Source: Leadbetterella sp. (GTDB lineage: Bacteria; Bacteroidota; Bacteroidia; Cytophagales; Spirosomataceae). Taken from it: a DNA stretch of 64,000 nt. A model generated the notes under the pieces. It was not told where the DNA came from. It did not search any database and saw only the letters and a list, made by a program, of their open reading frames with translations. The stretch lies in assembly GCA_021740125.1 (NCBI GenBank), contig JAIPAJ010000002.1, positions 1 through 64,000 on the forward strand, in the 5' to 3' direction. Numbering within the stretch: position 1 is the first letter of the stretch; each line of letters begins with the position of its first letter. Made by a program: the position numbers and the translations under genes. Below, piece after piece: positions 13,390-19,228 of this stretch.

Positions 13390-13393
13390 ATAT

Positions 13394-13409
13394 TGTTTCA
13401 CGTGAAACA
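13394..13409. promoter_or_regulatory. parS: parS-type centromere site 1
   Basis: Perfect TGTTTCACGTGAAACA, fits the ParB consensus TGTTNCACGTGAAACA. Confidence 0.9.
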
Positions 13410-13418
13410 ATTAAAATT

Positions 13419-13434
13419 TGTTTCACGTGAAACA
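13419..13434. promoter_or_regulatory. parS: parS-type centromere site 2
   Basis: Second perfect TGTTTCACGTGAAACA, 25 bp start-to-start from site 1. Confidence 0.9.
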
Positions 13435-13443
13435 TCAACATAT

Positions 13444-15306
13444 ATGTTCGAACAATACGATGTAATAGTAGTAGGAGCCGGTCACGCAGGATGTGAAGCT
13501 GCACACGCGGCGGCCACAATGGGTTCAAAGGTTTTATTAATCACCATGAACTTGCAAACAATCGCTCAAATGTCTTGTAACCCAGCAATGGGTGGTGTAG
13601 CAAAAGGCCAAATAGTAAGAGAAATAGATGCTTTGGGAGGAATATCAGGAATTGTATCTGACGAAACCATGATTCAATTCAGAATGCTAAATCGTTCAAA
13701 AGGCCCTGCGATGTGGTCGCCTCGTTGTCAATCAGACAGAATGGAGTTTGCTATAAATTGGAGAGATAAGCTTGAAAAAAACCATAATGTGTCCTTCTGG
13801 CAAGAAATGGTAACAGGACTATTGATAGAAAACAATCGCGTTACAGGAGTTAAAACCTCTCTAGGTTTAGACATAAAAGCTAAGTCTGTAGTACTTACCA
13901 ATGGAACATTTCTAAATGGAAAAATACACATAGGCGAAAAAAACTTTGGAGGTGGACGAACAGGGGAGTCGGCAGCTTACGGCATAACTGAGCAATTGGT
14001 AACTTTGGGTTTTGAATCTGGCCGAATGAAAACAGGCACACCACCAAGGGTTGATAGCAGAACAGTTAACTACGAAGCCATGGAAGAACAACTTGGTGAC
14101 GAAAATCCAGAGAAGTTTTCTTATACCAATACACCTACTTTAGGTAAGCAAAATAGTTGTTGGATCAGTTATACAAATCTAGGTGTTCACGATGAATTAA
14201 GAAAGGGTTTCGATAAATCGCCTATGTTCAATGGCCGTATTCAAGGACTTGGTCCAAGATATTGCCCGTCTGTTGAAGACAAAATAAATAGGTTTGCTGA
14301 CAAAGATAGTCATCAAATTTTTCTAGAACCAGAAGGAAGAACAACCATCGAAATGTATGTAAATGGATTTTCTACATCTCTCCCTGAAGATGTACAATAT
14401 GCCGCCTTGAAGAAAATACCGGGATTTGAAAATATAAAAATGCTTCGCCCTGGCTATGCGATTGAATATGATTTCTTTCCACCTACACAATTAAAGCTAA
14501 CTTTAGAAACCCACTTAATAGAAAATCTCTTTTTTGCTGGGCAAATAAACGGTACTACAGGTTATGAAGAAGCAGGAGCACAAGGTTTAATGGCTGGAAT
14601 AAATGCACACAGAAAATGCAAAGAACTGGACGGCTTTATCTTAAAAAGAGACGAAGCATATATTGGTGTTTTGATAGATGATCTTGTAAACAAAGGAACA
14701 GACGAACCCTATAGAATGTTTACATCAAGAGCAGAGTTCAGAACTATCCTAAGGCAAGATAATGCAGACGTAAGATTAACTAAAAAAGGAAACGATATAG
14801 GATTGGCTTCAGACTTAAGATTGGGAAACGTAAATAAGAAAATTGAGAATTCTGAAAAACTATACAAAGTCTTGAGTGAAACCAAAGTTATTCCAGACGA
14901 AATCAATGGTTTCTTAGAAAAGAATAATTCTGCAAACATAAGAGAAAAGGCAACTTTTTATAGTTTATTAAAAAGGCCCGAACTTAGCATAGAAAATCTA
15001 AAACCAGCAAATGATACTTATTATAAAATAATTTCTGAATACTCAAAAGACGAATTGGAGCAAACTGAAATTAAAATAAAGTATGAAAAGTATATAGAAA
15101 AAGAACTTCTTCTGGCGGAAAAACTGACGAAGTTTGATGATCTTAAAATCAATCCTGACTTTGATTACGAGAATCTTAAATCGATATCTATCGAAGCCAG
15201 ACAAAAATTAAAAAAAATAAAACCAATAACATTGGGACAAGCATCAAGAATAAGTGGTGTTTCACCTGCAGATATTTCTGTTATTATGTTACATTTAGGG
15301 AGATGA
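13444..15306 (+). CDS. mnmG: tRNA uridine-5-carboxymethylaminomethyl(34) synthesis enzyme MnmG (GidA)
   Basis: [67 protein letters not shown]; start revised from 13393 to 13444 because the upstream codons are parS DNA. Confidence 0.97.
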
Positions 15307-16877
15307 AATATATTTTATACTGGACGTGCATTTTTATAATGTTTGGTTGTGCTCAATTTGTCCCACCAACCGGTGGGCCTACAGATAAAGACGCACCAAA
15401 ACTTTTGAACTCAAATCCATCCAACAAAACTAAAAACTTCCATGGTAGCTCCATAAGTATGGATTTTGATGAATACATAGATATAACGGCTTTGAAGCAA
15501 GAATTAATTATTGTCCCAGATCCGAACATATTATATCTAATAAAACAAAAGGACAAAAATGTTAAACTGGTCTTTGAAAAACAGTTTCCAGATAGTACCA
15601 CATTCACTTTAAATTTTAGAAATGGGATAAAAGATTTAAGTGAAAGGAACCCATCAAAAAATCTCAAAATAGTCTTCAGCACAGGCCCAGAAATAGACTC
15701 TCTGACACTCAATGGAACCATCATAGACTTACACACAAAGCGGCCTGTTTTAGACGCGTTAGTGGGCCTTTATAAAAAAGATACACTGCCATTAAACAAA
15801 AAAAAGCCTAATTATTTCATGAAAACTGATAGCTCCGGCAAATACCAATTTGAAAATATTAAAGCTGACAAATATTTTGTAATGTCGTTTACTGACAAAA
15901 ATCAAAACTTAATATTTGACCAGAAAAACGAAAATATCGGTTTTATTAAAGATACTGTAATAGTAAACAAAAATACAGTTATGGACACTTTAGAAATCTA
16001 CCCCGCTAACTATACAAAAAACAAAATCAAAAAAAATATCAGTAGAGAAAATGAATTTATAATACAACTAGACAAACCCACAAAATCAGCCAATATTTCA
16101 TTAGACGACAGCTCAATAGTTACTAACTACGATAAACTAAATTTAAATTTTTTTAAAATAAAACAACCAGCAAACGACACACTTCTTGCTAAAATTATCT
16201 TAGTAGATTCATTAAACATATCTGATACTATTTCGCAGAAAATATATTTTACAAACCCTTCTAAAACAAAAAGAAAAGTTCAAAGCTTTCAAATAAATAG
16301 CTCTATAAAAAACAATCAAGAACTTACACGTACTTCCATTTATACTTTTACTTTTCAGTATCCCATTACTAGATTTGATTCCTCCAAAGCAGTTTTTAAA
16401 ACAGACACTGTTGTCTCAGAGAAACCAAAATATACCTGGATAAACAAAAACACACTTAACATTGAAATAAATACCAAAGCCAGAGACAATACACAACTGA
16501 CTTTTCCTTCAAATATATTTGAAAATTACAAAGGGGATACCAACTCATTATTCAGCATCAAAAATCCAATACTCAATAACGATGACCTTGGAAGTATAGA
16601 AGGAAAAACGATTACAAACACTGGAACAAAAATTGCCCAATTGATAAATGAAGACTCAGGAATAATTACCCAAACTCAAACGTTCATTAACAAATTTAGT
16701 TTTAAAAACATTATTCCAGGATCTTACTTTATAAAAATAATATTCGATGAAAATAATAATGGAATTTGGGATCCAGGTAATATCAACACAAAGAAACGGC
16801 CTGAAAAAATATTGATAACCAAAGAATCAATAAGAGTTAGGGCGAATTTTGAACTCAAAGACATTGAAATAAAATAA
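15303..16877 (+). CDS. Ig-like (SbsA-type) domain lipoprotein
   Basis: Lipobox [22 protein letters not shown] motif, Bacteroidota-type Ig-like lipoprotein; ATGA overlap with mnmG. Confidence 0.75.
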
Positions 16878-17251
16878 TATGTGGATAACCAAGTGGATAA
16901 CACAATAATTATGTGGAAAGACCCGTGAATAATAAAAGTTAAAAACATACTTACGAGAATCATAATACCTAAAAGCCTAAATTCATCAGAAAGTCAACGA
17001 AAATGTATTTTAATGAACAGGAAGTAAACAATAAAATAATATTAAATTTATGTTAATTAATTTGAATGATTAATTAACATAAATAATTAAAAATCTCAAA
17101 TTCAATAATTTACATGTGGAAAAGACCAATACTTTTCCACAAAAAAATAGAAGAATAAACAATTAAAAATACAAAAAAAAATACTCCACATATTCACAGA
17201 CATAATAATTAATAACAATAAATTTATATTAATAATCTTCTTTTATATTAT
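16878..17251. other. oriC: Putative chromosomal replication origin (oriC)
   Basis: AT-rich intergenic region with clustered DnaA-box-like 9-mers: TGTGGATAA 16880-16888 (perfect), AGTGGATAA 16892-16900, TGTGGAAAG 16912-16920, TGTGGAAAA 17115-17123, TTTTCCACA 17133-17141, TACTCCACA 17182-17190, ATATTCACA 17190-17198; AT-rich core; near mnmG and two parS sites. Confidence 0.68.
17046..17084. repeat. Perfect 16-bp AT-rich inverted repeat inside putative oriC
   Basis: ATTTATGTTAATTAAT (17046-17061) / ATTAATTAACATAAAT (17069-17084), 7-nt loop TTGAATG. Confidence 0.9.
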
Positions 17252-19057
17252 ATGAATTCCATAATAAGAAAAACGATTTTGATTTGGCTGGCTACCTGTC
17301 TCTTTGTCTTTTCACAAGAGCTGGATTTGGCCAATACATACCTCAAACAAGGAGAATATGATAAAGCTGCTGAGATTTACAAAAAATTGAGTACCAATAA
17401 AGATCAAGCGAGGCTTATACATAATGAGTATTTAGCTACTTTGATAAAGCTAAAAGACTATGTGACTGCAGATAAATTTCTGAGAGCTCAAATAAAGAAC
17501 AATAGCAATCAAATATCTTATAAGGCTGATTTAGCTCAACTTTTTGAAATATCTGGCAATGGGGAAGTTGCCAATCTAGAATATGATAAATTGATTGAAG
17601 AAGCTGCTAAAGTAGATGCATATGTTTACGAACTTCAGAATTTTTTCTATAAAGCCAATAAAATTGATCTAGCCGTAAAATTACTTTTGAGTTCAAGATC
17701 AAAAAGCAAAGACCCTTTTAAATTTGATACACAGCTTGCACGTGCTTATCTATATCTAGACCAGAAGGACAAGATGCTCGAAGAGGTGCTTGGCTTTGGT
17801 CAGAGGAGCAAGAACTACTCATATGTACAGGCAACCATTCAAGACAACATTAAAAGCGATAAGGAGATAGATATGCTAGAAAAAATGCTTTATGCCAAAA
17901 TTCAAGCAGATCGCAATGAGAGCTTCAATACCGAAATATTGATTTGGCATTTTACTCAGAAAGCAGATTATGGCAGAGCCTTTATACAAGCTCGGGCATT
18001 GGACAGAAGATTAAAACTAGCTGGTTTTAAGATGTTCGAACTTGCTGGTCAAAGTTTTAATGCCAAAGATTTCAAAAATTCTTCAAAAATGTACCAGTAC
18101 ATTATGGAAGAATACCCCGACGGCGAATTGTATCCCTATGCCCGTAGATGGTTAATACAAAGTAAAGAAGAACTTGTAAAAACTACATTCCCTATTGATA
18201 ATCAGCAGATTAAGGAATTGATAGGCCAATATCAACAACTTATAGCTGATGTAGGGATAACCCAAAAAACCGTAGATGCTTTGCGTAATATGGCCTTGTT
18301 AAACGCCTTTTATTTGCAAGAACATGATAGAGCCATAGAAATACTACAATCGGCCATTACAGGGGCCGGAAACAACCAAAAATTCAAAGATCAATGCAAA
18401 CTCGACTTGGGAGATATATATATTCTTAAGGATGAACCTTGGGAGTCAACTTTGCTTTACATGCAAGTGGAAAAATCACAAAGAGAAGATAATTTGGGAG
18501 AAATAGCAAAACTTAAAAATGCGAAACTTCAGTATTACACTGGACAATTTGAGCTTTCCAAAGAAATTCTGGATGTATTGAAAAAAGCTACAACCAGAGA
18601 AATATCGAACGATGCCATGCAATTAAGTCTTTTAATTCAAGATAATACCGGATTGGATACTTCAGAAGTGGCCATGGCCGATTTTTCCAAAATAGACTTA
18701 CTTATTTTCCAAAATAGGTACGAAGAAAGTATTGTTAAGTTGGATGCTTTGTTCAATCAGTACAAAAGTCATAGTTTAGCCGATGAAATTTTGTGGTTAA
18801 AAGCCAATACATTGCTGAAAATCAATAGAATAGATGAAGCGGTGACCGATTTAAAAAATATTCTAGAAAACTATAAGTATGATATCTTGGCTGACGATGC
18901 ATTGTTTACCCTTGCGAAAGTAACAGAGGAAAACCTCAAAGACAATGAAAAAGCAATGGAATACTACAGACAGTTGTTAAGAGATTATCCAGGAAGTATA
19001 TTTGGGGCCCAGTCTAGAATACGATTTAGAGAATTGCGTGGAGATGGTGTTAATTAA
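17252..19057 (+). CDS. Tetratricopeptide repeat protein, secreted
   Basis: Signal peptide and multiple TPR-like units (LANTYLKQGEYDKAAEIYKKL; KAMEYYRQLLRDYPGSIFGAQSR). Confidence 0.85.
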   Translation: MNSIIRKTILIWLATCLFVFSQELDLANTYLKQGEYDKAAEIYKKLSTNKDQARLIHNEYLATLIKLKDYVTADKFLRAQIKNNSNQISYKADLAQLFEISGNGEVANLEYDKLIEEAAKVDAYVYELQNFFYKANKIDLAVKLLLSSRSKSKDPFKFDTQLARAYLYLDQKDKMLEEVLGFGQRSKNYSYVQATIQDNIKSDKEIDMLEKMLYAKIQADRNESFNTEILIWHFTQKADYGRAFIQARALDRRLKLAGFKMFELAGQSFNAKDFKNSSKMYQYIMEEYPDGELYPYARRWLIQSKEELVKTTFPIDNQQIKELIGQYQQLIADVGITQKTVDALRNMALLNAFYLQEHDRAIEILQSAITGAGNNQKFKDQCKLDLGDIYILKDEPWESTLLYMQVEKSQREDNLGEIAKLKNAKLQYYTGQFELSKEILDVLKKATTREISNDAMQLSLLIQDNTGLDTSEVAMADFSKIDLLIFQNRYEESIVKLDALFNQYKSHSLADEILWLKANTLLKINRIDEAVTDLKNILENYKYDILADDALFTLAKVTEENLKDNEKAMEYYRQLLRDYPGSIFGAQSRIRFRELRGDGVN

Positions 19058-19200
19058 TTCTTAGTCAATGTTTTGTGTGTGGGTAAGTAAATATATATTA
19101 TGCCAATTTATATATTTATGACCAATTTTTTTGATTTAAAAACGCAATTTTTTAACGACCTATTAAATCCAAGCTTTTCAAACACGATCAGTTTTTTATT

Positions 19201-19208
19201 TATCTTTG
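19201..19208 (+). promoter_or_regulatory. Possible Bacteroidota -7 promoter element TATCTTTG
   Basis: Matches TAnnTTTG, 20 bp upstream of the TTG start at 19229. Confidence 0.4.
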
Positions 19209-19228
19209 AAAAAAAATAACGAATCAAC

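Follow-up and report, generated by a model that had tools for sequence, protein, structure and literature searches.

An AT-rich intergenic gap at positions 16878-17251 is, we are highly confident, the oriC (chromosomal origin of replication) of a Lacihabitans species, because the GC-skew turns of its relatives, the conservation of the gap, the dnaA loci without box clusters, and a conserved module of two DnaA boxes followed by DnaA-trio-like triplets all agree. An earlier, sequence-only reading of this DNA had proposed a chromosomal origin here, and the relatives' skew turns, the box-rich gap found family-wide, the lack of box clusters at the examined dnaA loci and the box-box-trio module support that proposal. 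The window, meaning the whole stretch of 64,000 bases that was analysed, comprises bases 1-64000 of a contig of 74754 bases (C86), in an assembly of 267 contigs (3.74 Mb, 77% complete). By its sequence the source is a Lacihabitans species, of the order Cytophagales, since its close relatives by the Big_5 protein of this locus are Lacihabitans sp. CS3-21 (94% identity), Lacihabitans sp. CCS-44 (90%) and L. soyangensis (72%).

DnaA boxes and the right-end module

The gap extends for 374 bp from the Big_5 stop codon to the ATG of a TPR-repeat gene and has 21% GC, bearing out its first description as an AT-rich intergenic region of that length; 17203-17251 is almost wholly A/T. The gene mnmG, which had been described as near, is close by, but it is one gene off rather than an immediate neighbour, with the Big_5 gene (matched in 56 of the 59 genomes searched) in between. 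The features are as follows.

13393-15306, plus strand: mnmG (gidA), the upstream landmark (Pfam GIDA, E=7.6e-164); its upstream position is kept in syntenic loci
15303-16877, plus strand: Big_5-domain lipoprotein-like gene between mnmG and the gap (Pfam Big_5, E=9.3e-13)
16878-17251, no strand: predicted oriC, the AT-rich intergenic gap, with box enrichment; in relatives the GC skew switches at the orthologous position
16880-16888, minus strand: exact DnaA box TTATCCACA, also exact in L002-L004 and diverged in other Lacihabitans
16892-16900, minus strand: DnaA box TTATCCACT, 12 bp from the 16880 box (12 is a common spacing in relatives)
16912-16920, minus strand: weaker DnaA box CTTTCCACA, 20 bp from the 16892 box (20 is the commonest spacing in relatives)
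17051-17085, no strand: mid-gap AT-rich inverted repeat TTATGTTAATTAAT-N7-ATTAATTAACATAA, read in the sequence and partly kept in the closest relatives
17115-17123, minus strand: DnaA box TTTTCCACA, by sequence match and comparison with relatives
17133-17141, plus strand: DnaA box TTTTCCACA, by sequence match, with nine NAN triplets 16 bp later
17182-17190, plus strand: DnaA box TACTCCACA, the left member of a tandem pair with one common base; ranked first of 127,928 positions by the profile from other genera
17190-17198, plus strand: DnaA box ATATTCACA, the right member of that pair, by sequence match, conservation and profile
17201-17221, plus strand: DnaA-trio-like run of seven NAN triplets (CAT AAT AAT TAA TAA CAA TAA), at which the likely unwinding region, reaching to 17251, begins
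17252-19057, plus strand: TPR-repeat gene next to the gap (ATG at 17252), which keeps the origin when the family gene order breaks
19078-19086, minus strand: extra DnaA box TTACCCACA, lying 21 bp beyond the end of the TPR gene; in the window only the 17182 site scores higher with the profile

One perfect DnaA box and six near matches had been listed for the gap, and all seven words were located in it: TGTGGATAA at 16880, AGTGGATAA at 16892, TGTGGAAAG at 16912, TGTGGAAAA at 17115, TTTTCCACA at 17133, TACTCCACA at 17182 and ATATTCACA at 17190. Several other Lacihabitans have TTATCCACA itself at the position of the 17133 box. Four boxes lie within one mismatch of TTATCCACA, and six within two mismatches with CACA intact; dinucleotide shuffles of the gap average 0.17 and 0.41 such boxes, and none of the 2000 shuffles reached either count. 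The gap holds an above-chance cluster of DnaA boxes in non-coding DNA and, beside the boxes, the AT-rich DNA characteristic of an unwinding element. Box counts by themselves would not prove an origin, because a stretch within a coding sequence at 30.9-31.2 kb of the window also reaches four boxes at up to one mismatch; conservation is the stronger argument. Genome-wide, the exact 9-mer is not over-represented (43 places, versus 50 for the reversed control). A pair of exact boxes on another contig (C106) was rejected as a candidate; it is inside a coding sequence with no surrounding cluster. The 17051-17085 element is a 14-bp inverted repeat made of A and T only, and the TTAATTAACA at either end of it may represent a degenerate DnaA box.

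Conservation, within Lacihabitans and its sister genera, is strongest at the right end of the gap, in CCACATATYCACAG followed by ATAATAATTAATAACAAT-like sequence. Here (17182-17221) two DnaA boxes with one common base are followed by a short spacer and then by triplets with a central A. A profile of this tandem-box/trio module, built from 23 sequences from outside Lacihabitans, gave 27.9 bits at 17182, against 13.3 for the second-best site in the window; when the spacer and trio half of the profile was scored alone, the module at 17182 again came out top of the 127,928 positions. In the 3.74-Mb assembly a single copy of the module consensus is present, and its reversed control is absent. All three combinations of a box (CACA intact) with at least seven triplets found in the 64 kb are in the gap. 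By the published search rule for the basal unwinding system (BUS), which asks for three or more NAN triplets no more than 16 bp from a DnaA box (PMC8287927), seven triplets follow the 17190 box and nine the 17133 box. By analogy with such systems, the likely unwinding site is the right end, 17199-17251. The sequence-only reading had described two box clusters flanking an AT-rich core; the boxes are present, but the likely unwinding site is this right end and not the core.

In Dyadobacter, the gaps (L187-L193, L198-L200, L202, L205-L209) carry 9-13 boxes without the overlapping tandem pair of other genera, and the unwinding module may be arranged differently there.

GC skew and the position of dnaA

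Cumulative GC skew and skew at codon position 3 had been proposed as a check, and they were computed for relatives, sampling 7-26% of each genome. The principal case is G007, a single-contig relative of the same genus (4.06 Mb), for which 40 sampled stretches were followed by finer sampling. Its codon-3 skew is negative between about 1.2 and 2.86 Mb; beyond 2.94 Mb, and on across the zero point of the circle to about 0.9 Mb, it is mostly positive. Both measures change sign at about 2.88-2.90 Mb (2.882-2.902 with the finer sampling), and the orthologous gap is at 2.884 Mb, in agreement with the proposed origin. Directly across the circle from the gap, at about 0.85-0.9 Mb, is the skew maximum (terminus). 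The Lacihabitans sp. CS3-21 contig of 307 kb has its skew minimum at about 170 kb and its gap at 178.5 kb. Two single-contig genomes of other genera were sampled as well. The gap of G034 is at 2.786 Mb, inside the 2.531-2.790 Mb interval that holds its clean skew minimum. The gap of G030, at 4.160 Mb, falls inside the 4.055-4.304 Mb interval in which its codon-3 skew switches; G030 is noisy, with several additional switches, but compatible. In the distant relative G046 the skew is too shallow to locate a turn. The window's own 75-kb contig is too short and too weakly skewed to show the switch, and its cumulative minimum is near 5 kb rather than at 16.9 kb; the absence of a turn at the gap reflects the limits of these data, and the hand-counted skew that had been offered around the gap is not usable.

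The gap had also been described as having no adjacent dnaA, and there is none beside it on this contig. The 77%-complete assembly yielded no dnaA, so that the separation is read from this contig and from relatives: dnaA is on contigs other than that of the gap in G001-G006, G008 and G009, and in G007, where it is at 1.2 kb, it is 1.18 Mb from the gap around the circle. The arrangement is that of an origin beside mnmG (here one gene upstream) with dnaA elsewhere. No box clusters were found in the 3.2-kb loci around four dnaA genes, nor in the opening 2.5 kb of the G007 and G030 records, which contain dnaA. The gap of G007 has only two boxes at up to one mismatch. A denser cluster in that genome (five boxes), at 2.890 Mb and 5.8 kb from the gap, is inside the coding sequence of the DUF4175 equivalent and was judged to be chance.

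Proposed mechanism, alternatives and known origins

By analogy with known origins, DnaA encoded elsewhere in the chromosome would bind the left array of three minus-strand boxes (16880, 16892 and 16912), the middle pair (17115 minus, 17133 plus) and the right tandem pair (17182 and 17190, both plus). From the right pair a DnaA filament would spread onto the DnaA-trio-like strand at 17201-17221 and open the AT-rich stretch 17199-17251, up to the TPR start codon; helicase would be loaded at the opened stretch, and two forks would depart in opposite directions.

A possible objection is that the gap is instead a DnaA-titrating or DnaA-reactivating site like datA or DARS, or a promoter through which DnaA regulates the TPR gene, and that the true origin is at some other place in the vicinity. 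Boxes near a start codon could indeed control transcription, and in almost every family member the gap is followed by the TPR gene. Against this, several relatives have their GC-skew minimum at this very place, the window has no second box-trio module and the rest of the assembly no second copy of its consensus, and the order box-box-trio is that of an unwinding element; we regard this explanation as very improbable. We give less credence still to a chance clustering of box-like words in AT-rich DNA. That four boxes also occur in a coding stretch, and that the exact box lacks genome-wide enrichment, might seem to favour chance, but no gap shuffle reached the observed count, the enrichment recurs in every syntenic relative, and the positions of boxes and trios are conserved; this conservation already refutes it.

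Equally negligible, in our judgement, is an origin located at dnaA, the position found in many bacteria and often taken for granted by submitters who rotate a genome to that gene. The records of G007, G030 and G010 do start about 1.2-1.3 kb before the DnaA C-terminal domain, but there is no skew minimum at dnaA in G007 and G034, so that skew already contradicts this placement, and the examined dnaA loci have no box cluster.

The E. coli oriC is near mnmG and away from dnaA, with several DnaA boxes and an AT-rich side, and the oriC proposed here resembles it in each of these respects. The E. coli origin is directly between gidA and mioC (PMC10225481), whereas the Lacihabitans gap is separated from mnmG by the Big_5 gene and is followed by the TPR gene; we claim no homology of origin sequence. 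That oriC is not always near dnaA was noted with Ori-Finder 2022 (PMC10225481). Using that program and GC skew, oriC was placed beside mnmG in the Flavobacteriaceae Mariniflexile litorale (PMC11278836) and Algorimicrobium/Bizionia (PMC12843772), and for Mariniflexile the dnaA position was explicitly at odds with the skew plot (PMC11278836). Since an mnmG-side origin away from dnaA has already been published there, the Lacihabitans oriC is a well-supported further case of a known arrangement. It shares with those predicted origins the proximity to mnmG and the GC-skew support, but belongs to a different class and has the Big_5 gene between mnmG and the origin; compared with those reports, we describe the boxes, the trio module and the TPR neighbour and compare them across a family. 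In a search mainly of the open literature, with most subscription papers and the DoriC tables outside its scope, we found no description of such an oriC for the family of Lacihabitans.

The BUS of Bacillus subtilis and others consists of DnaA boxes and DnaA-trios (PMC6669920, PMC8287927). The Lacihabitans module likewise has tandem DnaA boxes and then at least three NAN triplets within 16 bp, the orientation of boxes to trios being taken from the description in that work. It differs in the one-base overlap of its boxes, which sets them in an 8-bp register, and in triplets that are for the most part TAA/AAT instead of TAG; here, moreover, unwinding is predicted.

Genome records of the group are sometimes rotated to dnaA as the supposed origin. 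A defined oriC with a recognisable unwinding module would give the correct zero point for work on replication timing, growth rate (peak-to-trough) and strand bias in the family. The oriC of Cytophaga hutchinsonii has been used for replicating plasmids (Xu et al. 2012, as cited in PMC5891637), and by that precedent, as cited there, the gap is a candidate fragment for such plasmids.

Conservation and the TPR neighbour

The succession of mnmG, Big_5 lipoprotein, gap and TPR gene is kept across the family, in genera that include Emticicia, Dyadobacter, Jiulongibacter, Larkinella, Arcicella, Persicitalea and Aquirufa. Conservation of the boxes in related Cytophagales had been suggested as a further check, and it held in all 69 of the named loci where a TPR homologue is present: the gap has 4-32 boxes per kb, and the remainder of the locus 0-2 per kb. 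Where Big_5 and TPR genes have parted within the family (G011, G013, G027), the box cluster and module are directly upstream of the TPR gene; in G013 the boxes are with TPR at 6.62 Mb, Big_5 is at 4.32 Mb and dnaA at 0.92 Mb. In G035, the Big_5-TPR gap is enlarged to 1.4 kb, with the module at its TPR end. Because boxes and module stay with TPR when Big_5 separates, the origin, as predicted from these sequences, is tied within the family more to the TPR gene than to mnmG or Big_5. At the level of the order, four genomes have Big_5 and TPR apart; one (G050) retains a box cluster before TPR, and three (G037, G053, G056) have none beside it. Among other order-level relatives, the module is in the Big_5-TPR region in L144-L146, L152 and L158-L160, and is absent from some.

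A second group of boxes follows the TPR gene in the window (19058-19228) and in loci L163-L166 and L213, and L173-L179, L212, L214, L220 and L226. In the window this includes the single minus-strand box at 19078, which is conserved in close Lacihabitans and is TTATCCACA in CS3-21. Emticicia, Larkinella and Arcicella have two to five boxes past the TPR stop; Dyadobacter loci mostly have no boxes there. We tentatively raise the possibility, doubtful as it is, that the origin of the family is bipartite, with the main cluster and module before TPR and a smaller group after it, DnaA complexes cooperating across, and TPR, not mnmG or dnaA, as the fixed partner.

In Emticicia and relatives (L177, L239, L173, L174, L216), three close-set boxes are found about 150-190 bp past the TPR stop; these appear to double as the first codons of the next gene.
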